A stretch of DNA of 64,000 bases. It comes from Haemonchus contortus (lineage: Eukaryota; Nematoda; Chromadorea; Rhabditida; Trichostrongylidae). Made by a program: the position numbers and the translations under genes. The stretch is from positions 27,686,959-27,750,958 of the forward strand of contig LS997564.1 of NCBI GenBank assembly GCA_000469685.2, written 5' to 3'. Below are positions 14,640-63,560 of the stretch, piece by piece. The notes under the pieces are model-generated. The model searched no databases and was not told where the DNA came from. It saw only the letters and a list, made by a program, of their open reading frames with translations. The first letter of the stretch is position 1, and every line of letters begins with the position of its first letter.

Positions 14640-17135
14640 AACGCTAGAATGCCAGAATTAAATCAGATTGAATACGCCTATAGAGAAGGCTTCTCAATTT
14701 CATTACTTGGAGACGGGTTTGATATGGGGGCAGCGATCGCAGATAGTCCGCATTGGGAAAGAACCGACAGAATAGAATTTGGGTAAATGTTGCTTGAACT
14801 TTCTCAATTTTCTGAATATTTTGCTTCAGGGAAGGGCTCCAAAGAGAACTACATATCAATCATATCAACGATATCCTACTCCGGAATCTTTGAGATAGTC
14901 CGTTTGCTTTACAACCACCAAGCGTATGTCAAGCTGAGGAGAACCCCATGAAAGCATGCAAGTTTTTTCGAGGTTGACCACCAGCCCTCTGCGAGCATAT
15001 TCTCGATGGCTTCGGTTAGAAGGCCTTGTGCTCCATCCTCATTTTCTCCATCAAACGCTACAGATACCTTTATGTCATCCGCGTATGCCGCCACATGAAG
15101 CTCACTATTTTTACGGAGAAATCGCACAAGATCATAAGTGTATATCAGGAATAAAAGAGAGGACAAGCTGCCTCTTTGGAGAACCCCTGAGGTATAGGTT
15201 CTAGGAGAGGACACGTAGTTACGGAAGCGCACACTCAGTTTCCAGTCTGCAAGGTAGGATTGGAACCATCTAAATTCCCTCTCGTGGACACCTATGTTTT
15301 CTAGTTTGTTGTCTAGTTTTCTAGTAAGTAGGCTAGATCTAGTCAGGGTATCAAATGCTTTACTCAAATCAAAGAAAATGGCGCTGACTTTTCGCCCGGA
15401 GCTGATTGCTTCTATCCAGAAATGTGTGCAGTCAATTTACTGCGTACATGTGGAGGAGTAGGGGAGAAAGCCATGCCCTTCGAGCGGGATACGCTGGAGC
15501 CAAGAGACCCATTCTAGCAGAGCGCAATTGCTTATTTTCTCCAAAACGCAGGCAAAACACTTGTGGGTCGAAAATTTGAAATTAAACTGGATTCAGTGGA
15601 TTTAAGGATAGGCGTAGCAATGGCGTGCTTCTAAAAGGATGGAATCTGCCCTAGTAGAAAGGTCATACTATATATGTGAGCGAGAGGGACGGAGAGCTCC
15701 TTCGCGAGTGTTTTGAAAAGTCGTTGCGGTGATCCATCAGGAGGTAGAGAAAGAGATGCTTCTAAGGAGCGCAAGATTTTATGCATCATTTCCGAAGTTA
15801 CGATTGGGAAGTCCAGGTGATTATTTGTGATGGTAGCTTGGGTACTTGCGGAGAAAGGGACGAAAACACTTCCAAAATAGTAAGCGGGAGCTTCAGCCTT
15901 TTCCTTTTCTGTAGAGTACTTTTCCCCGTTGCGGCCCTCAAGAACATGTGAGACTGGTGACTACTTGAGAAACTTGTTAGCATAAGCTGCCAAGTGTTTG
16001 ACGTTACCTTCTTGAACCAATTTCTCAATCCTGTCAGTCTGAAAACGCTTTAAGTGATGGTCCAGCTTACTGCTGAATTCAAGAAAAGCACTTGAAGTCG
16101 AGGGATCATCGGTCATGCGAAAGAGTCTTTCTCGTTGCTGGGCCAGTTTCATTATGTGACGAGGATAGTTCACTTCACGACTTGAAATAAGTTTCAAAGG
16201 AACAAACTGATTCATTATAGCGTGCGTGACGCCACAAAACCTCGTACAGATATCATCTAGGCTGTGGTAATTCGAAAATAACATCATCCAGTCAATGTGT
16301 GCAATGTGTATGTAATGGCACCTTTGTTCATCTCACTAAAGTCCCTTGATATTCGAGTTACTTTCTCTTTCCGATAGCCCACCAAGGAAAATGTCACAAT
16401 GTTGTGATCGGAGGAGTATAACGGAGGCAGGGCGCAGACTTGAGAAACACTACGCTGGGGTGCTAAAACAATATCTAATCTTTTGGCGAGTCTAGTGGGG
16501 ATCTCTTCGAATTGTGTGAGCGATAAGGCATCGAATATCGACAAAAATTTTTCCGCAGTGACAGACCCTGCAGTGTGGGTTTTCCAATCGGTGTCATGAT
16601 TTAGGTCCCCACCACTGTTGTGGAGAAGGGCACTGAACACGCCAGATCAATTAAACTCGATACAAGGTGTTCATCCTGGGCACTCGTGAATTTGGGTGGA
16701 CGATAAATCAATCGAAAGCGGTGCCTGGATTGCAGTAAGGTGTCAAAACAAAACACATCAGACATTAAGTGACCGGCATAGAACATTATTTCTTCAAACG
16801 ATTCTAGACAGTGGATTAGGACGCAAACCCCACCTGCTTTACGGCCGTACCTGTTTCTCTTGAGTACAGAATATGTCAAGCCGTAGGAGATTTGGAGTTG
16901 GAAACTTTGCTACCCAACCGAGGTTCAGTCAAAAACACTAAATAAGGTTCTGAAGTACGTAGCAAGCGATGCAGATGTGGCACCTTGATGACAAGACTGC
17001 GAGCGTTAATCATTATGCACTTGGAACTCAATGTAGGTCCGAGACGTGATTTTTGGGAAAAAAAGAGTTGTTTCGCTTGGCTGCGCGAATGTCACTTACT
17101 CTCATGAGCTGGCCTTTGCAGACTACATAAACGAG
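14640..17135 (-). mobile_element. Decayed CR1/Jockey-type non-LTR retrotransposon
   Basis: Reading on the minus strand from about 17130 the parts come in order. First is an apurinic-type endonuclease start (INARSLV.K near 17010, then FLTEPRLGSK). Next are endonuclease middle and end pieces (GRKAGGVCVLIH, VVGT, DLNHDTDWKTH, PPLYSSDHNIVTFSL at 16879-16350). Then comes reverse transcriptase with MSKAFDTLTRSSLL, GVLQRGSLSSLLFLIYTYDL and the catalytic AYADDIK at 15367-14909. Last is the RT thumb tail, SLWSPSLKQNIQKIEKVQ, at 14859-14644. Frames switch repeatedly and stops interrupt it, so it is inactive. The 'LFLIY..DL', YADD and 'SSDHN' motifs fix the class. CR1 versus another Jockey-superfamily clade is not settled. 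Confidence 0.8.
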
Positions 17136-22141: not shown

Positions 22142-24319
22142 TTAACCCATTGACGACCGCGTGGCCCGTATACGGGCCACGCCCTGTCGTGCTCCCGGGA
22201 CCGCGTGGCCCGTATACGGGCCACAGCATTGTTTTGTATGTATAACACTCATTTACGATTTTTTTGACCATTTCAAGTATCGAGCAGGTTTATGACCTAC
22301 TATAGAATCTTGACGCGCAGTGGTCCGTTGAACATTTACTTCCGTCTTTAGTGATAAGGATAAACAAAGTTACTACTGTGGGCATTGGTAAAGGAGCAAA
22401 AAAAGGCTGTCAACAAAAAAATTACACGCGTTTAGGAAACATTCCATACAAAAGCATTTGTGGCATTTGCTGCACCTTGACGAGACTTTTTGCATGGTTC
22501 ATGGCATAAGAGCGACCTTTCTCCTCTCGTAGTTCCTTGTAGCAACCTGTGCATCTTCTCCTGCTTTCTTTCGAACCGCTCTCAGATCTTTCCAATTTAT
22601 GAGTCGTTCTTGGAGAGGAGAACTCACTGAAGATATCTTGAAGTGAAGATTCCACAATCATTTTGAATTTATTGAGCTGAATAGTTCCTTTTGTGTCACA
22701 AAAAAGTCTCCACGAGTTGACGACTGCTCTTTGCACGACAAAATGAAAGAAAGTTCTCAAATACCATTTCGTTGTACGACGCATGGAGAGTAAGCTGACA
22801 TCTGATCCCTCTGATCAACGAATCCTTTTAGTTTGTTGTAGTCTTCAACTACTTTAGGTTTGTTTGATGAGCCACGTTCACAATCATGCGAAGTTTATAT
22901 CGTCATGAGGTCTCTATTATCCTTCCACTTCAAAACAAGAATACCGTCCTGATTTTGTAGGCAATATAGCTCCCCTCGTTTTAATTTCTTCTCTTTCACG
23001 AGTGGAGGAAGTTCGCCACGATTCTTTCTCAAGGTAGCAACCAGGTGGGTTCTTCTCTCCAAAAGTTTTTTGCCAGTCCAATCGAGCTGTACCAGTTATC
23101 ACAAGAGAGCTGTCTGCCGCTGTCTAAGAGACCATTCATCAGGAGAAAACGACAGTATTCGCAAGCGGTCCTGTACGTGTGGTCTTGCCTGCGTAAATCA
23201 TTGATCTCTACGTGTAGCCTCCTCTCGTGCAAAGTTTGAAAATCTTGATACCATATCTGTTTCTTTGACGGTATATACTGTCGGAAAGCAACATGTCCTC
23301 TGAACTGTACAAGCGACTCGCCTATGGTTACTTCTTTTCCAGGACGAAAATTTCTTTCACAGTTGCCATTGAATATGTCAACGAATTCCTTTATCTTATA
23401 CAGTCGGTCACCGTCTGGTGCGCTGTTGTCACAGAAATGGAGAGAGCGCAGCAGTAGCTCAAATCGACCCCTAGGCATAACCTTGCAGGCAAATGCATGC
23501 CCTCCTAGCGCTGGGCGTGCGCTCCAATACTCCCGTAGTTTGGGCACTTTCACAAGTCGCATCTGAATGCACAGAGCGATGAACTTCTTCAATTCCTCTT
23601 TATTAGTGTCCACGAAGCTGGAATCTTTCTGCGACCCGTATCTATTTGTTTCCGTTTCCATAAGCGTCAGAAGGGTGTCATCGATGAATTATTCGGAGAA
23701 ATCCAACGGAGCAGAGCATGCTGACACCGCATTGCTCAGCCCTTGTTGTTGAGTGAAGTTCGACCTAGTGTTAGCTTCAACACCACTTGTCCACTTTTCG
23801 CTGTCGCTGTCTTCACTGTCAAGCGCGGCCATTGATCCAGAATCTGAAGCAGAATCTTCTCTTGAGCGAAAAGTTGCTTGCCAATTGTGTCGAATCATCT
23901 GTGTCGCCGCCTTCGTTTTCAGCATCGGAGTCCAACAGTAATGCTCGGAAATTTTTATCCATATCGGCATCATCACAGTAACTGGGATCCATTATCCTAT
24001 GAGGAAAAATACAACCTCTACTTGAAGTGCTTGACCAAATTTATAAAAAAAGGATGTAAAGGGACTTTGCTGAGGTATCCGATGATTCGAAACATGCCAT
24101 TCTCATCCTTAAACGCATTTTACCAGAAGGGCAGCAAAGAAGGCATTTGACTCATGTGTATATTACTATACGGAGAGAGAATCCGAAAATAGCAAAATAT
24201 GTGTAGGCAGTAATCATTGCAAACTGCAACTTTTCACAGGCTTCTTGAAATATAATCGTGAGAGAGCAGTGTGGCAGTGCATTAATTGGCTTCACATCAG
24301 CAACAAATCATGGGGTTAA
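22142..24319 (-). mobile_element. piggyBac-like DNA transposon, inactivated
   Basis: The transposase region (22422-23976, minus) is flanked by TTAA at 22142-22145 and at 24316-24319. Inward ends read TTAACCCATTGA and TTAACCCCATGA. piggyBac elements insert at TTAA and often start with CCC. The right end carries two 26-bp direct repeats (22155-22180 and 22199-22224), each holding the palindrome GTGGCCCGTATACGGGCCAC. The left end lacks them, so the left boundary is less sure. Length is about 2.2 kb. Confidence 0.75.
22422..23976 (-). pseudogene. piggyBac transposase pseudogene (DDE_Tnp_1_7)
   Basis: The N-terminal acidic region (SASDSGSMAALDSEDSDSE) ends in an in-frame TAA at 23689-23691. The same frame then continues at 23661 with METETNRYGSQKD. 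The core carries family hallmarks: LREYWSARP, FELLLRSLHFCDN, a first-acid block with ESLVQFRGHVAFRQYIPSKK, and the second-acid block SCDNWYSSIGLAKNF. A frameshift near 23030-23100 leads into GTARLDWQKTFG, then a stop at 22917. Later pieces KPKVVEDYNKLKGFVDQRDQM and KWYLRTFFHFVVQRAVVNSW fit the third-acid region and following helices. A C-terminal cysteine stretch (RRCTGCYKE) is reduced compared with the usual zinc-binding tail. At least one nonsense codon and one frameshift make it non-functional as read. Confidence 0.82.
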
Positions 24320-25390: not shown

Positions 25391-25396
25391 TAGCAG

Positions 25397-26544
25397 ATGA
25401 TTCCATCGATCATCCAACGCAGTCAGTTCAGGAACTCCGTTTGCAATGCTGAGAAAATGGGAAGACCCAGATGTAGCTCACCAGACCAGGACAAACAGAT
25501 CACACCTCCGTCAAAGGCTGGCCCTCGTCTCACTACGGCTGTCATTGCCGCTCGAATCAGCGCGAGCGATGGCACCAATTTTAGCCTGCGGGCCGTAGGG
25601 AGACTCCTAAACAATGGTGGTACTCATGGGAGACGTTCAGCTAAAAAGCCGCTCATCGTTTCAAAAAAAGCTGGAGCAAGTTCGCGCGCCGTCACTTCAA
25701 CTAAACTTCGACGTACTGTAGTGGAGTTCCTATTACGGCGAGAGCAAGTTCATTTAGTTGGGAAGCGGTGGTATACGGTACGGACGACGTCCATCTGGGG
25801 AAACTTTCAATCCAAAGTGCCCCAACCGCAAACAAGCATGGTGGAGGAAGTGTGACGGTATACGGAATGATCTCTTGTTTGAACATTGACGGTACGATGA
25901 CAGGACATTACTACAAAAATATGATTGTCGATATCGTCTTGTCGTGGGCAGAGCAGCACGTGCCAGCAGGATGGATTCTGCAGCAAGATAACGATCTGAA
26001 ACACACCTCAATGATCGTGAGCGAACTGCGAATCAGGCTTCCGGAATGGCCAAGCGACTCATCGGATCTGAATCCCATAGAGTACATGTGAGAGGAGCTC
26101 AAAAGGCGCTTTTCGATCAACCTTGTAGGAACACTGACGAAAAATTCGCAAAGAAGCGAAGGAGTGAAACGCCATGCGAGTGTCTACAATTCAAAAACTA
26201 ATCGACTCGATGGCTTCCCCTTGCGATGCTGTCATCAGAAGTCGAGACTTTCCTACTGGTTATCGATGTTATCGGTGTTTTACATGTTGCTATTTCGAAA
26301 TGAGGCGGTTTTTTAAGGTTAGTACTATCTTTATTTTCCACTGAAATTGATTTAAATCTCATTAATGTACCCTGAACAATAGCTAATTGCAGTTTAATAG
26401 CGGTCAGTATTCAAAATATCAATATCTAAATATCAATTCAATATCTCTTTGATTAACATACTAAAATTTCATGTGATTTTATGAAGTAGGAAAAAAGTTA
26501 CAACTGGAAAAGCGTTTCACCGAAGTCTTTTATCCGCTACTGTA
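25397..26544 (+). mobile_element. Tc1-like (mariner superfamily) transposon fragment
   Basis: The first frame (25397-25855) carries a Tc1-type DNA-binding part: GRPRCSSPDQDKQI, SLRAVGRLLNNGG and GRRSAKKPLI. The second frame (25768-26091) carries the catalytic part: NKHGGGSVTVYGMIS, WILQQDNDLKHTS (second D) and WPSDSSDLNPIEYM (third acid), then a stop where the family has tryptophan. The frame change between 25700 and 25790 removes a clean first-acid block. TACTGTA at 26537-26543 may be the right inverted-repeat end at a TA target. I found no matching left end, so it is 5'-truncated or rearranged. Confidence 0.78.
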
Positions 26545-48011: not shown

Positions 48012-49941
48012 ATGAATCCCGCCACGCTGTCATCGGTTGGCTTCGATTTTGGAGCCTCTGGCAGTCAGCCAGAAGCAAACGATCACCTTCAGGTGAGCCA
48101 ATGATTCCTTTACTTCTAATATCACTTCAATACGATCCTGATAGCACACATGTGTGATTGACTGTGTGTCAGTTCACTCGCCTACTACGAACACCACATT
48201 ACATGCGTCATCATTGCGGATCATAATTGGTAATGGGGCCCATTGGTGAAACATTAGAGCCCTAAGTGCCTCATTGGGCCGGCGTATAACTCTTCCACTC
48301 GGCATATTCATGAATCGCAATCCTGTGAATCCACTACGACTGGGAGGCATCAGCATTTAGACGTCCCTGCGAGCTCCAAGAGCTGTACCACCCTAATCTC
48401 CTTTCCTCCAAAATGCCGTTAAGCCTCGATCGAAGCCATTTTCGTTTATCCTTTCTTTCCCATAGTGAGTGCCAGTTACTTAGAATAGATCAGTTTTCAA
48501 GTGAAATAGGAAAAGTAAGAGAATGCACTTGTTTCAGAGGCTAGCTGCCATGACCCAAGGGGTAGGAAAGGATGATCATGATCAAGCAGCAGCTCCATCG
48601 ACAGATGCCGCCTTATACACAGGTGGACAGTGTAACAGTGTAGAAAAATTTCCGATCTTTACCTTTATCTACATTTAGGTGCAGCAGCTTATATGCCTGG
48701 ATATGCAGGATGGCCAAACTATTACCAACAGTTTGGACAACCCTTAGCTCCAGCAGCATTTTCTGCTTGGCCACCTCAGTGCTATGCTGCACCACATTGG
48801 CCTAATTATGGTGAGTTTCATCTGATCCTCCAATCAAATCATATCTATAGAATTTGGCGAACTCCCCTTTCCAAAATCACCTCATCTCTCCCCGTGGGCG
48901 ATCTCCTATTGAGTGTAGTCATCGGATCATGGCCACAAGATTCTAATTTCTGTACTGCCAATTTGGGTAGGATGAGATGGTTTGTACCTGTACCCTGCCC
49001 TATCATTAGCTTCTCAATTTGCTGCATCGATTTTTCTACTGCGTGAGGTCTCCTGAAGAGCGACATGAGCTCTTCCGTCTAATAGCCACTTACGATCGTT
49101 AACGCGGCTCTTTGTGATTTATGTCATGTAACTGCAGAACTACCATAGTAACGCTCGCCTGCTCGCCCTTTGCATTTATGCCCTTTATACTTTTATACAC
49201 TCACCGAGATTACTCCGAATAGTACTTAATTGTCATAGGTGGTCCTGAACAGCAAAACAAAAAAAATGTACCGTAGTAGTAGTGGCGAAAGTCGATCGAG
49301 TTGTGACTGTTGTGCTAGTGTGTGTTTCCTCTGTTTATTGTGTGGCATGATGACCACCGTACACAAATAGCAAGTACTTCGTACATGATCTTGAACGATT
49401 GTCCGATTATCGATCCGATTCGGTACGATCGTGTACGATGTACAAGCGGCGATGCGCTGCAGGCAAACACACGCGGGCAAAACAAGCAATAAGTGATTAA
49501 GTAAATCTTGGACCAACTATGAAGTTCAAGCGTTCGTTTATACTTTCCGCTATGATCCAGACCTCCACCTGACGTGTGTTTGTTTCAGCTGCGTCGAAAA
49601 AAGGCAGGCAGACGTATCAACGATACCAGACGAGTGTGCTCGAGCAGAAATTCCAGCAATCAAGTTATGTAAGCAAGAAACAACGTGAGGAACTACGACT
49701 ACAGACGAACCTTACGGATCGGCAAATCAAAATCTGGTTTCAAAATCGACGGATGAAAGCCAAGAAAGAAAAACAACGGATAGATGATCATGGCGAACAT
49801 GCTCCACTCCTGCCGGCAAATCCGCCAAAAACACTTCTAGATGATGATGATAAGAAATGGCATATGGGTGCAACCCAACAGGCTACTGCATGGCCTCCAG
49901 CACCTCCGCATCCATACCAATATCCATTATGTCCCCCTTGA
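48012..49941 (+). CDS. egl-5: EGL-5, posterior (Abd-B-group) Hox transcription factor
   Basis: Four exons: 48012-48092, 48538-48622, 48679-48810 and 49589-49941 (TGA). They sum to 651 nt, or 216 residues, close to the C. elegans protein. All introns have GT/AG ends and phases agree (0, 1, 1). The start is the first in-frame ATG after an upstream TAG. The N-terminal part is Ala/Tyr/Trp-rich with WPNY twice (exon 3). Exon 4 holds the homeodomain from SKKGRQTYQRYQTSVLEQKF through SSYVSKKQREELR to [18 protein letters not shown], with Q50, N51 and M54 of sequence-specific Hox proteins. The C-terminus is acidic, then Pro-rich (LLDDDDKKW, ending YPLCPP). In C. elegans egl-5 patterns the tail and posterior neurons. 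An Antp-like homeodomain follows on the same strand and may share exons 1-3. Confidence 0.93.
48679..48810 (+). CDS. egl-5: egl-5 exon 3, candidate shared exon of two Hox products
   Basis: Acceptor ACATTTAG and donor TATG|GTGAGT bound this 132-nt exon. It encodes an aromatic, Ala/Pro-rich linker with AGWPNYYQQF and PHWPNY, tryptophan motifs that may take the place of the cofactor-binding YPWM hexapeptide. It ends with one base of a codon. Both downstream homeodomain exons (49589 and 50858) begin with two bases, giving GCT (Ala) or GTT (Val). Exon 2 also ends with one base, so exon 3 skipping would keep the frame too. Confidence 0.85.
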
Positions 49942-50857
49942 AGTAGAAGTGCTAACACGGGTCTTATGTTTTCTTACGAAACTGTTCAATTCGATATCTA
50001 TTGATTCTGTGCGGTGTGAATTTTGTGTGTAAAGTATTTGTGCAAACTGCTTTTTGTGTTCACTGATTCCTACCTAAAACAGCTCGATCGTCATCACTAC
50101 CATGTGGGGTGCAATCTAAGCTCCAAACCAAATCCTCAACTTACTTGTGGTACAAGTAATTACAGTAGGAAGCCCAGAACCAGAAATCCTTCCTACAGCC
50201 TCGAAACTTTCTGATTTTTCTGGCGACAATGATAGGCTCACTTATATGACACTCGGGAATCCAGCTGTCAGGAGTCTACTCCGGGAATTTTCCTCCATCT
50301 GATAGGGAATGGATTGTGGCATTGGCCTACCCACACCTATTGCTAGTTGGAATATTTCTTCTTGGCAACAGAATCTCAAGTCATGGTGAACCTCAGAAAA
50401 GCTTTGAAGTACATCTCTAGCCTTCATCTCAGCCTGTACCCATCGTCATCAGTGACGGTGACTGAAAGGAGGCGTCATTTGGTCTAACCGAGCTCTAATT
50501 AGTCTTGTAAGCTTCAACACATCAAGCCCAGTCGATCAGAGCTTGGCGTCCGCGATTGCAGACTTTTTCTAGACGATTCCGGTTTTGCTAGTTCACAATG
50601 CTGAATCCTTCTGGCAGCCGGCCACGCTGCTCTCCAACAACGTTTTTTCTTGACGCTGCACTGGGAACGGGTAACATGCCTAACAACGTCGCAGATCTAG
50701 CCCACCAACAGAAAAACATCGAATAGTACGTAACAGCATCTACTGGTCCAAGGCAGCCCAAGGGTGGGTGACTGTCTAGTAGCCACCTAGCTCCAAGTTG
50801 TCTTAGAAAGAGAACTCGTTCCATTGTTTTGACCTCAAAACTACAAACCGCCTTTAG
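49942..50857 (+). other. Interval between the two homeodomain coding regions
   Basis: It holds the egl-5 3' UTR if transcription ends here, but I see no AATAAA in it. No start codon with an exon ending in the required phase before a donor was found. The part 50220-50850 looks like inserted dispersed sequence. It ends in the short acceptor ACCGCCTTTAG, weaker than the TGTTTGTTTCAG in front of the egl-5 homeodomain exon. Confidence 0.5.
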
Positions 50858-51153
50858 TTCCGGACGCTTGTAAGAAACGTGGAAGACAAACGTACACTCG
50901 TCAACAAACGCTCGAACTCGAAAAGGAGTTTCATTACAACAAATACCTCACGAGAAGGTAAACTTTTTGCTCATGTTTATGACAGAATTTCGATTTTTCC
51001 GAGCTGATCGCTCTCTTTTCCAGGCGGCGAATTGAATTAAATCGAAGTCTGGGATTGTCTGAACGTCAAATCAAAATTTGGTTTCAAAATCGTCGAATGA
51101 AGCAGAAAAAGGAGAACAAATCACAAAATGAACATCGTAGCGACTGTGCTTAG
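50858..51153 (+). CDS. Antennapedia-like Hox homeodomain, two exons (partial gene or alternative 3' end of egl-5)
   Basis: Exons 50858-50957 and 51024-51153 (TAG stop 51151-51153) join with a 66-bp intron inside homeodomain codon 29. The homeodomain runs [40 protein letters not shown], then [20 protein letters not shown]. These are typical Antp/Hox6-8 residues, including [24 protein letters not shown] and Q50. Only about 11 residues follow. There is no Met before the homeodomain and the exon starts with two bases of a split codon, so an upstream exon is required. egl-5 exon 3 (or exon 2) fits. It resembles Antp more than the C. elegans MAB-5 homeodomain as I remember it (I32, RRRR, KENK). A filarial Antp-type gene called ant-1 may be the orthologue, from memory. 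mab-5 is the alternative identity. Confidence 0.9.
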
Positions 51154-52196
51154 CTAGAAAGCAGGGCTGCCTTTTGGCTTCGGATAGTATCTACGGTCTT
51201 CCATCCCCTAGTCAACTCCCAAGTCTCTAGTCGAATTAGGTATAGTTGCTGGTATGAAAAGTTTTATAGGTGTTGATCTCTTGAAATACGCTTTTCTCTA
51301 TTGTATCACTTGCAATTTGTTCACTTTTGTCTTTAGTTGTCCCAATAAGTTCCTAGATCACGCTAATCACACATTGGAACCAAGTTCCCGTAGATCAGAA
51401 AATGATATTCTGCAATAATTGGAAGTACTATGTACTCTATCTTACTACGTCACCGTCGTCGTACTGTAAACGAATATAGTTAAATGGTTTATTGAATTCC
51501 GTGACAGTTGATCGACAAAGAGTACGCAGCACTGTGAGATACCGTAACCACGACGACGGCATAGCGCTCGTGTACAGCAACATAGCAGGCAGTCTACGTT
51601 TTCGATCCATGACCAAAAAAAAACGGTATTCCTTTAAGATGACGCCGCAATTTCATGTTCACGACGTTAACTTCAATCGAAACGAATAAAGCACGTTCAT
51701 TCGTTGACAACGATTCGAGTAGTGAGCGATAATGATCTCAGAGATAGGGCAGATGCAGCGGAATGAAGCCGAAACCTTCTCGTACCGCTTCGATACTGTC
51801 TCCCTCAGAACTTCACACGACATGTTAGCGACTGAAATCGATATTTACATAAGCATCGTGGAAAAATCGTTAAATGCCATGAAGAAGTCGTCAGAAATGT
51901 GCGAAATAAGGTGGAATATTCGAGAAAAGGCAAACATAGCGAATACACATATGCATATCGGCGCCCCATGATTGAGGTGACACAGGAAACGTTGGACCGG
52001 TTTGATGTTCTGTTTACACAAATATTTAACTACCGTACCCCATAGAGAGAGCTAGAGAGAGAAAAGCGTTCGTTTGCGTTCGTTCGCTCAGGCTAGCTAC
52101 CGTAGTCCATGACGACAACTACCTTATTCATTTATCTCCGAGCGGAAGACGACGAGCGCAGCAGCCATTTTCACCACTGCAGCCGAACTCATACTT
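51154..52196. other. 3' flank of the Antp-like exons
   Basis: An AATAAA at 51685-51690 lies about 530 nt after the stop and could be its polyadenylation signal. AATAAG near 51342 is a weaker candidate. The frame 51732-51971 (79 codons) is unassigned. Confidence 0.4.
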
Positions 52197-52269: not shown

Positions 52270-54290
52270 AGGACTGTGTGAAATCATCTGTGAAAAACTG
52301 CTTTCCTTCCCACTACAAACACATTAGCCTTAGTGGATCGCCAATGCCTTCCCATGCACACACTAACAGAGCAGCCTAGCCGAGAAATCGCGACTCGATC
52401 TCATCTTTTGTCCGATCTACAATGCCGTTCGTATGAACTCTAGAGCGCTACCGTAACCTACTACTAATACCGTACTTGATTTGTGGATGTGCAGCTTGTG
52501 CGCATCGGTTCATTTGTGTGCATGTGCGCGATGGTCCCAGGCGTCTCGTTGTCTATTGATATTCAGAAGGAGAGCGACTGGGAACCAACTGTGAATTAAA
52601 CGATAAATCGCACGCGGTTTCATGTGATTTTCAATGGGCCCATAAATGGGATGCATGAGAGCATGACGCGCTTAGAGGTTTCAGACGTTCAGAAAAGCCA
52701 AATCCAGCTAGACCTGCTGGAGTAGTGCTTGATTTGTGCATGGAATAGGGAACGATGCATAAGATCGAGTATTCTTCTCGGAATTATCACAAATGAAAAG
52801 GGGGTACATTTTGGGATGGCAGAAAGTCGAAGGGAATGGCAGGCCACAGAGAAGACGCCGAGTTGCAGCTCGGCTTAGGAGTGGAGGCTTCACCTTCTCG
52901 TGGATGGCCCTTGAAATTTTCACTGTCTCGCTGGAGAGCTTTGATGTCAACACTGTTGAAATCTTACGGTCTCCAAGGAAAATGTAAACATCATTATTGC
53001 GATGTACCGCTCCTAGAAAACCTATCATTTCTATTGTCTTTCTCATACCCATATCGGCATTCAAAACACGGGTGGTCTTTTTCAAAGTTTCACGAGACTT
53101 ACATACTGTCAGTCTTAAATTTTGGGCGAAACTGGTTAGCTTCTCTATTCAGAATATACAACCATTGTTGGACTTCAAATGAAATTCCGAGAAAGTTTCA
53201 GTTCCAGTGAGAGCCTCACTTCCCAAATCGGTACTCTCTCTTCATTTCTCTCAGCCTGCCGAAGCTCCACATTGCTCAGACACTCAATTGACTCCCATTT
53301 GTACGAACTTATGTAAGCCGCCAGCTTCAGCTTAGGCTTATGTGGATGGCTTCAAGATTGCGGAAGAGCAGGATAGAAGCTTTCTGCGAAGTCCTTTCTA
53401 TAACTGTCAGCTTGGTTCATGAAGCTATAAGAGTGGGTCTGGCATTGATAGGTGGAGTATGCTACTTTGTTATTGAAGTTGTACTCTAGAAATCCGTTCG
53501 GCTTTTATCCACGGCTCTGCTTCAAACGATCTGTCATTGGTCGTGTTCGTTCGGCAACCGAACCCGATATCGAACCTCCACTGAGACTGGGAGAATCGAT
53601 ACTCCAATCGATATGGTCGACGACGCCATTAGGTTGGCCCATTAGGCAGCTCCTCATGTCGGACCGGCAAGCCCACACAACGGAACGGATCTACGCAGGT
53701 TGGTGACGAAAGCAAAAGAAGAAGAAAAACTCGAGGGAATAGCCTATGATTGATGGAGTGGCTTCAAGATGGCGTTTTTGAGAGCCTTCTACCAATGAGA
53801 TCAATAAGTACAGTGGCCTAGGTTTCCGGTTCAGTTCCTCTACGTGATATCCCTTCTTTTGTGGATTGTGATTACGGTATGATTGCTCCGTGAAAGGGTT
53901 TCAGCTGCTGTCCCTACGAAAAGAATCTGCGATCAATAACGATCGGATTTCTGCTGTCCTCACTAATAGACTGTACACGATGGTTTTTCAATCGAAAAGC
54001 GTGCTGAATGTCTGATTTTTTCGCTCTGGCGCTAGGTAGGTCGGCGCCATGTAATTTCGCCACGCGACAAGGTCGACTCACGAAAAACAACCTTACTTCC
54101 TGCTGAACACGGGGTGGTCTAGGGGGATGTGTTGGATGAACGCACGAAGGTCGCTTAGAGTCATCGTAGTGTTTCTGATTTCGGGATGAACATGCTTCTC
54201 AAATGAACCCATTGATTCATGAAGGATACAGACTGTCAAAAGAGCAGATGGCTATCACCACATGAACTTTCTCATCAAGCGTTTCCCCAT
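52270..54290. other. Unassigned sequence
   Basis: Opposing frames at 52708-53085 (minus, 125 codons) and 52836-53210 (plus, 124 codons) overlap. The minus one includes GMRKTIEMIGFLGAVHRNND. Neither has recognised motifs or splice partners. Confidence 0.3.
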
Positions 54291-61070: not shown

Positions 61071-63560
61071 TTGGCAAAAGCACCAAAAGTTTATATTACG
61101 TGGTAAAATCATCATGAGAGTATTTTTAGTCCTTAAGGAAGAAATTCTATGTAATGCAAAAGTTCGTTCTCTCACAAAACCCGATCCCTAGTCTTTCGCA
61201 CATGAAGCGTTACCCTTACCAAAGCTCCGGGCCACCAATGAAGAGCGAGGGATATCCAAGTAATTTAAGTTCTCTCATGTTAAGCCTCCTCTGGAATCAC
61301 TCTCAAAACTCCGTTCAGAGAGTCGCTTGGCAACTTTAGAAAGCAGATTTGAAATCAGCATCCGAAAACACGTCTAGCAATATAGGTCTTACTTCATACA
61401 GCCACTTCGACTTGGGTTCCATCCCTGGTTAGTAGAATAATCCATTAAAGAACCTATAGTAATGGAACATGAGGTTCCACATACTTTCAGTATGAGGCAC
61501 TCTATATGTATGTGCCAGAACGATTTCTATGGCATTATGCTCAGGAACCCCCCCCCCCCTCTCCAGCTATCCTAGGACCACATTCCTAAACAGCTGGAAA
61601 AGCTAGAACAGGTACAATCCTGGAGACCAGATATGATTTTAACGGGAGTATTTTTAACTAGGGATGACCAGGACATTTTTTTCCAATCGATTGCTCAATA
61701 TATTAGTCTTGAAATGATACTGACAAGTTGTACTTTCAACGCACAAACGCCTGTTTCAGAAAAGTATATCGAAGGTCTGGTGATGCAAGCCAGGAAGATC
61801 GAACACAAGGTCAACAGACTGTACGAAAAGAGAATGCGTCGCCCTTTGCTTGCGGTGTTTAAGACTCGAGGCGATGCTGGTTTAGGTGTACAATATGCAC
61901 TTGGTCATGAACAGCGATTCGTACAAAACGTTGACAACCCTAATCGCACGTTTGCAGTTGAAGAGATGTAGCTCAACCCCACCTCTAACCATCTTCGTTG
62001 CCTACGCACCAATATCAAGCTACGAAGAACGGAGCTGGGAAAGTTTTATATAGATATAAGAAAGCTCTTCAGAGAGGACCACACATTCTTCAATGTCATT
62101 GTTGATGATTTCAACGCCCAAATTGCTTTAGAAGAACGACTGAAAGCAACATATCCTGGCTCACGAAACGAAATGGAACGGCGATCCATACTATCCATGG
62201 CAACTCGCTATTTCAGAAAACTTTCACTTGGGTATGAGATGAGTAGATGATGAGTATGGGATTCACCCGCTGGATAAACCATAATGAAATAGGTCACATC
62301 ACCTCCAATCAAAAATTTTGCCTGAATGATGTTGCTGTTGCTCCGAAGTTCTACATGGAATCAGACCACTGTCTCATCCGCGCTGGATTCTATTGTCCAG
62401 AGGGTGAAGAGAGAGGGGCGAAGTTCAGGAATCGAAGCCCCAAGACTGTTGTCAACTGAGATCACTTCGCTTCATTTGCGAGTTTGTGGTTTGTCCGGTA
62501 ACAACAGCATCGATGATAAGTACGTCTGGCTCGTCGAACATCTTTACGATAGTGCCAGGAAAGCAAAGGGTCTCAAAGATGCCAAGAAGCGTCTATCTCC
62601 AAAGACTCCCGAGCAGATGCGCCAGCGTGGAATCGCGAGAGGTGCAGGCAGTAACCAGCTGAAGTCCGAACTTGCGAAACTATGCAGAGAAGTGATAAAG
62701 AAGAACAGGAGTTTTGGTCAAAGCTGCAGGGTTTAGGAGGAAAAAGAGCCTTTGTAAAGCCCGTTGGAACACACGACTATGGCGACTTTCCTTTGTCGTC
62801 CTGATGGAACAATTACTGCATATCGAAAGGCAAACGGGAAGGTCGTCTAAAACTACTACGGATCTCTGACAGCTACGTCTACCTGCCTATATACTATGTA
62901 TATAGGCAATAGGACTACCCTTCAGTTCTCCCTTCGGAATTTAGACATGCCATCACGTCGAGGAATTGTACGACTTCCCGATAAGATCAGACCAGAACAT
63001 CTAAAATGTCTTACAAAAGATGTCAGAACTCTGGTTAGGCTCTTCACGCGATACCTATCGAAAGGCAAAATGTCCACGTCGTGGAAAACTAGCAAGACTG
63101 TGTTGCTGTATAAGAAAGGAGATCCCGACTATTTTTTGCCATCGCCCGAACTGTTTGCTATCTGTATCCTATAAACTTTTCTCATGCTTCAATCTCAACA
63201 GGATTGTAGGAATATTAGAAGAAGGACTGCCTTGCGCACGTGCAGCGTTCCGGTGAGGGTTCAGTACAGCCGATAACACCACACTGTCACAAGTTTCACT
63301 GAAGATCGTGAGGATACATGATGCCGTTATGTCTGACGTTCATCGATTTGAAGAAGGCCTTTGGTACTTTCGAGACAGAAGCGGTTATTGGTAGCTCTCT
63401 TCCATCTGCGATTGTCAGTAAAAGTCAAACATATTCATTCATGAAGAGCGAATTCGCTCTTCCACTAAGGCTTATCTTCCGAGAAGACTGAAAGAAAATG
63501 AGAGAGCAGTTAGTATTCAATTTGGCACATCTTCATACCCCATATTGCTGTACCTTGAAG
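61071..63560 (+). mobile_element. RTE retrotransposon, most complete but decayed copy
   Basis: The 5' part (61071-61730) is the right arm of the inverted repeat. The coding part begins with endonuclease: TSCTFNAQTPVSEKYIEGLV, MQARKIEHKVNRLYEKRMRR, then FVAYAPISSYEE and DDFNAQIA. Next come HHLQSKILPE-type pieces, KFRNRSP and a linker (LSPKTPEQMRQRGIARGAGS, ELAKLCREVIKK). The reverse-transcriptase N-terminus follows: LPDKIRPEHLKCL, VRLFTRYLSKGKMSTSWKTS, KTVLLYKKGDP and LNRIVGILEEGLPCA. It breaks off near FIDLKKAFGTFETEA at about 63370, before the YADD motif. Many frameshifts and stops make it inactive. Confidence 0.82.

Follow-up and report, generated by a model that had tools for sequence, protein, structure and literature searches.

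Two Hox homeodomain sequences lie in tandem in the window, i.e. the whole 64,000-nucleotide stretch of DNA analysed: egl-5 and, directly downstream on the same strand with 916 nt between them, the ant-1 homeodomain. The two homeodomain-coding ends are referred to as heads, and the features that bear on their expression are the following.

48012..48092, + strand: exon 1, with the ATG start at 48012 and the donor CTTCAG/GTGAGC; its product matches P0001 of Necator and P0003 of Strongylus vulgaris
48538..48622, + strand: exon 2, acceptor TTTCAG, donor ACACAG/GTGGAC, ending in phase 1
48679..48810, + strand: exon 3, 132 nt, entered and left in phase 1, donor ATTATG/GTGAGT, with three W motifs
49589..49941, + strand: head 1, terminal exon with the EGL-5 homeodomain (60/60 identical to Necator P0001), the C terminus and the stop
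49942..50857, + strand: interval between the heads, 916 nt; none of 15 kinds of poly(A)-signal hexamer occurs in 49943-50857
50598..50670, + strand: a rival candidate for the first exon of the Antp-type head; acceptor 50573, ATG 50598, 24 codons, phase 1
50858..50957, + strand: head 2 part 1, Antp-type homeodomain exon without start codon, acceptor CCTTTAG
51024..51153, + strand: head 2 part 2, remaining Antp-type homeodomain, short tail and stop ending at 51153

Elsewhere the window holds mobile-element fragments at 14909-15436 (-), 23029-23688 (-) and 25394-26091 (+). Matches to mobile elements include an RVT_1 reverse transcriptase (E 8e-12) and a DDE_Tnp_1_7 transposase (E 5e-37), together with Tc-type pieces (HTH_Tnp_Tc3_2, DDE_3) that fall below the curated cut-off. 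Two open stretches on the + strand, 61576-61971 (131 codons) and 62326-62736 (136 codons), match no Pfam family at E 0.01 and may be exons of a downstream gene. The Rfam gathering search and ARAGORN (bacterial code) returned nothing over the whole window.

Scripted splicing of the window gives 298 nt for exons 1 to 3, leaving exactly one base over. With 49589-49941 attached they encode EGL-5, at 216 aa; with 50858-50957 and 51024-51153 instead, the product has 175 aa and its homeodomain is of the Antp type. Neither frame is interrupted and all junctions used are GT-AG, confirming the preliminary description, which had the exon 3 donor at 48810 leave one base and enter both heads in frame. A frame match by phase has about 1 chance in 3 of arising anyway, so the phase match alone is a weak argument. 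The exon 2 donor also joins either head in frame, and the exon 1 donor is out of frame with both. Because exon 3 spans 132 nt and exon 2 already ends in phase 1, exon 3 could be skipped in frame before either head. The shared N terminus has its three W motifs all in this exon, so either product would lose them by such skipping. Pfam finds a single homeodomain in each joined protein, with an additional overlapping Homeobox_KN match below cut-off in EGL-5. The protein encoded by exons 1 to 3 differs at three positions from Necator P0001 and at three from Strongylus vulgaris P0003, which marks the worm as strongylid-like.

The three W motifs lie at residues 67, 86 and 96 of the joined Antp-type protein, the W96 motif being separated from the homeodomain by eight residues. 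Abd-B-group Hox proteins contact PBX-type cofactors through a W motif of this sort. A YPWM-like hexapeptide before the homeodomain is typical of Antp-type Hox proteins, and P0079 carries FPWM. No PWM hexapeptide is present in the joined Antp-type protein, which has the three W motifs of another kind instead.

Compared with solved homeodomains, the Antp-type head scores highest with Drosophila Antp (103.8 bits), followed by Ftz (94.8), Ubx (93.3), abd-A (92.9), Scr (88.0) and Abd-B (66.9). Residue identities, from a comparison that took in 24 of the 237 collected proteins, are 60/60 with Necator americanus P0016, 59/60 with Angiostrongylus cantonensis P0174, 55/60 with Loa loa P0027, 49/60 with Anopheles Antp (P0109) and 33/60 with the EGL-5 of the window itself. 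Conservation at 60/60 in Necator and 49/60 in mosquito Antp argues that this head is maintained and is not a relic. A reading of the Antp-type exons as remains that have ceased to be expressed would agree with the several losses of the Antp-like locus among nematodes described in the accessible part of PMC5531438 and with the lack of any joined or expressed product among the best 120 matches listed per protein search. Such decay is hard to reconcile with 60 and 59 homeodomain residues out of 60 retained between genera, or with an open frame, GT-AG sites and a stop that are all intact, and we regard it as very improbable.

The EGL-5 homeodomain is identical at 60/60 residues to Necator P0001 and at 58/60 to BMA-EGL-5 isoform c (P0018). 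Its scores against solved homeodomains are 67.3 bits with Ubx, 64.5 with Antp and 55.4 with Abd-B, Abd-B not being the closest, so that the name EGL-5 (Abd-B group) rests on orthology and on the available text of PMC11603191.

The two heads differ at 27 of 60 homeodomain positions, among them residues 1 and 3 of the N-terminal arm, helices 1 and 2, and residues 56 and 60, and are identical over residues 43 to 55, in the recognition helix. Judged from these residues, the recognition helix contributes less to the change between the heads than do the arm and helices 1-2. The proposal that splicing switches DNA specificity was thus overstated. A splice choice between the heads would swap the arm and helices 1-2, and would leave the W-motif cofactor contact, and the recognition helix for the most part, as they are.

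Read upstream without splicing, the frame of the Antp-type head is closed by a TGA at 50830 with no ATG before, and the first in-frame methionine of its own exons is residue 158 of the joined protein, i.e. homeodomain residue 54. The exon at 50858 therefore has no start codon and is entered within a split codon, as first described. A nematode operon of the SL2 type has a short spacer, about 100 nt, behind which the downstream gene begins with a start codon of its own. The 916-nt spacer and the Antp-type exon without start codon depart from that organization, the candidate exon at 50598 being a possible exception.

In view of this candidate exon, the statement that no alternative 5' exon was found between the heads is not confirmed. 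The candidate would make ant-1 a gene of its own, with 50598-50670 as first exon, a leader trans-spliced at 50573 and a product of about 100 aa carrying its own 24-aa N terminus. The acceptor TTTCTAG/50573 fits the consensus at 7/7 positions, the ATG follows 25 nt on, and the frame is open through a phase-1 donor into the Antp exons, in frame with 50858. Sets as good as this one (acceptor 7/7, donor at least 5/7) arise in 3.25% of 400 dinucleotide shuffles, and the stand-alone model of Necator P0016 has a similar length (102 aa). Against this, among 138 tiles, each of 915 nt and taken on both strands of the window, 7 hold an equal set, the candidate's own tile included, and 44 do when the acceptor is relaxed to at least 6/7; the 7/7 rule was itself fixed only after the candidate had been noticed. 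The donor at 50670 (GG/GTAAC) fits 5/7, and the 24-aa peptide is unlike the N-termini of all seven ANT-1 models compared (scores 8 to 19, the 95% point of a one-pair null being 22). B. malayi, moreover, is stated in the available text of PMC11603191 to use a shared exon. The candidate exon may be a chance occurrence, and an independent ant-1 gene appears improbable to us.

Other sources of an N terminus between exon 3 and the Antp-type head were sought in 48811-50857. Weaker phase-1 candidates with 5/7 donors lie inside intron 3 (49121-49127 and 49438-49492). With donors of at least 6/7 this region contains no own first exon for the Antp-type head, an absence that says little since shuffles expect just 0.51 and 0.67 such exons in its two non-coding parts. 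It contains no inverted repeats of at least 12 able to bridge a splice choice. The N-terminal extensions of P0016 and P0021 gave no convincing match to the window in tblastn (best E-values 0.90 and 0.23), the best P0021 match lying behind ant-1, at 53130-53204.

The 3' end was approached through poly(A) signals. Tests of the interval covered 49943-50857, beginning one base after its true start at 49942. Eleven hexamers tested against shuffles gave 0 occurrences against a mean of 2.43 (P 0.08), a weak result; windows devoid of all 11 number 33 of 631 on the + strand and 21 of 631 on the - strand. An AATAAA lies behind ant-1 at 51685..51690 (+), the sole one found between about 49900 and 53000. 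The missing hexamers together with this signal would suit a single common 3' end, a weak indication, and at P 0.08 we set the hexamers aside as evidence for a shared 3' end.

Gene models of other nematodes were compared with the locus. Three protein searches with length limits gave 6321, 7891 and 3336 matches; among the best 120 listed for each, which include nematode ANT-1 models, no protein joins an EGL-5 N terminus to an Antp-type head. A pattern search with the ANT-1 alignment produced 71 genome-contig and 172 viral-contig matches and confirmed no relative. The comparison took in seven ANT-1 models that carry an N-terminal extension (P0016, P0174, P0021, P0025, P0027, P0176 and P0177). Their N-termini are short and mostly unrelated, with no common first exon: three of 21 pairs score above 22, the 95% point of the one-pair null, all of them involving Elaeophora P0025, and the top score of 31 joins two filariae. 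At the conserved edge, a codon able to end in CA followed by a codon starting with G would match a read-through CAG and entry into a phase-1 exon. Four of the seven models fit this pattern (P0021 S-V, P0027 A-D, P0025 A-D, P0176 S-D). The extra residues of the relative P0021 are located at the position of the Antp-type intron (50957/51024), as expected from a read-through intron. P0016, P0174 and P0177 are not explained by read-through and may, to judge from their sequences, have received an upstream exon from the gene predictor.

A partial model from Onchocerca ochengi, P0004, runs the EGL-5 C terminus straight into ANT-1, with both homeodomains in one protein, and so indicates the same gene order in that species. 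Taken literally, it suggests a read-through protein with two homeodomains, made from a donor inside the EGL-5 terminal exon spliced to 50858. The window offers phase-1 GT dinucleotides after 49633, 49663, 49684, 49867 and 49930, all five of which keep the frame open. The site equivalent to that of P0004, at 49930, reads TAT/GTCCCC, a poor donor; the model is only partial, and no strongylid example appears among the matches listed (best 120 per protein search). We consider such a protein highly unlikely in the present locus.

Our preferred reading is instead that egl-5 and ant-1 belong to a single transcription unit whose 3' end can be either of two homeodomains, and we give it a probability of roughly three in four. 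Counted for the sharing of exons are the frame, the phases, the missing start codon, the conservation of the second head, the B. malayi precedent and the gene order of P0004, as well as the want of a common first exon in the seven ANT-1 models, the four edges that resemble read-through and, as a weak point, the interval free of poly(A) hexamers. Counted against it are the candidate own first exon, the three unexplained models, the ordinary acceptor at 50858, the lack of a bridging repeat and the absence of a joined protein among the best 120 matches listed per protein search.

In this two-headed unit, a presumably shared promoter and exons 1 to 3 would supply the N terminus of both products. 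Splicing of the exon 3 (or exon 2) donor to the near acceptor at 49589 would yield EGL-5, and splicing of the same donor past the EGL-5 head to the far acceptor, at 50858, would yield the Antp-type protein. Scored against a simple consensus, the near acceptor (GTTTCAG) fits 6/7 and the far one (CCTTTAG) 5/7, a value that 924 of 3931 AGs on the + strand equal or better. The difference suggests that EGL-5 would be the default product and that ANT-1 would depend on regulated skipping.

The closest known parallel is Brugia malayi. The available text of PMC11603191 (2024), which cites Aboobaker and Blaxter 2003 (its ref. 29) for the B. malayi splicing, states that alternative cis-splicing joins one 5' exon to the homeodomain exons of either egl-5 or ant-1. 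It bears out the remark that a linked egl-5/ant-1 arrangement has been discussed for filarial worms and agrees with the idea that the two homeodomains use the same 5' exons; that idea is probably the best reading of the anatomy, although it had been put forward with the rival first exon overlooked. As in B. malayi, the Antp-type gene follows egl-5 and the heads fit the same 5' exons in frame. Phase-1 entry into ant-1 also seems common to filarial relatives, to judge from residues of their gene models. Unlike B. malayi, a clade III filaria in which the available text has the splicing demonstrated, the present locus belongs to a strongylid-like clade V worm and is known here from its DNA alone; also unlike B. 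malayi, as there described, three coding exons could be shared.

Shared exons in a clade V worm are possibly new: the available text of PMC11603191 has no statement on them, that of PMC6956190, PMC2749850 and PMC3890508 has nothing on egl-5/ant-1 splicing, and a search of mostly non-subscription literature found no recognisable treatment of shared egl-5/ant-1 exons in clade V. The presence of ant-1 itself in clade V worms had already been reported in PMC11603191, whose available text places the Antp-type locus in the crown lineage of Rhabditomorpha, with the exception of Teladorsagia circumcincta and Nippostrongylus brasiliensis, and reports ant-1 from Caenorhabditis monodelphis. The two-headed kind of gene is thus known from B. 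malayi, and what may be new is that a strongylid-like worm of clade V would have it as well.

More distant parallels are found among Hox neighbours that are transcribed together. The bicistronic Ubx/Antp transcripts known from myriapods, crustaceans and an onychophoran (PMC2938723) resemble the present locus in co-transcription and in splice variants, yet there both genes lie on one RNA, and the available text describes no homeodomain swap behind one N terminus. One promoter likewise gives several products via alternative splicing in the polycistronic Hoxc4/Hoxc5/Hoxc6 cluster of mammals (PMC1831499). According to the part of that source available, such clusters are defined by a shared non-coding exon, so that each Hoxc protein would retain an N terminus of its own.

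Should the junction prove real in clade V, worms related to C. elegans would make Hox proteins with Antp-type and EGL-5 heads from a single promoter. A wider proposal, which we advance tentatively and rate somewhat below even odds, is that a two-headed egl-5/ant-1 was ancestral to clades III and V, perhaps also to IV. The repeated 'Hox loss' in most Caenorhabditis and in Pristionchus would then have removed no more than one of two alternative 3' ends, the egl-5 of C. elegans would be what remains of a two-headed Hox gene, and predictors that do not share exons between loci would have misstated the ANT-1 models across nematodes. If true, the repeated loss of ant-1 would be that of an alternative exon and not of a gene, and several nematode ANT-1 models would need correction. 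With N terminus and expression the same for both products, the locus would also provide a natural test of the contribution made by a Hox homeodomain.
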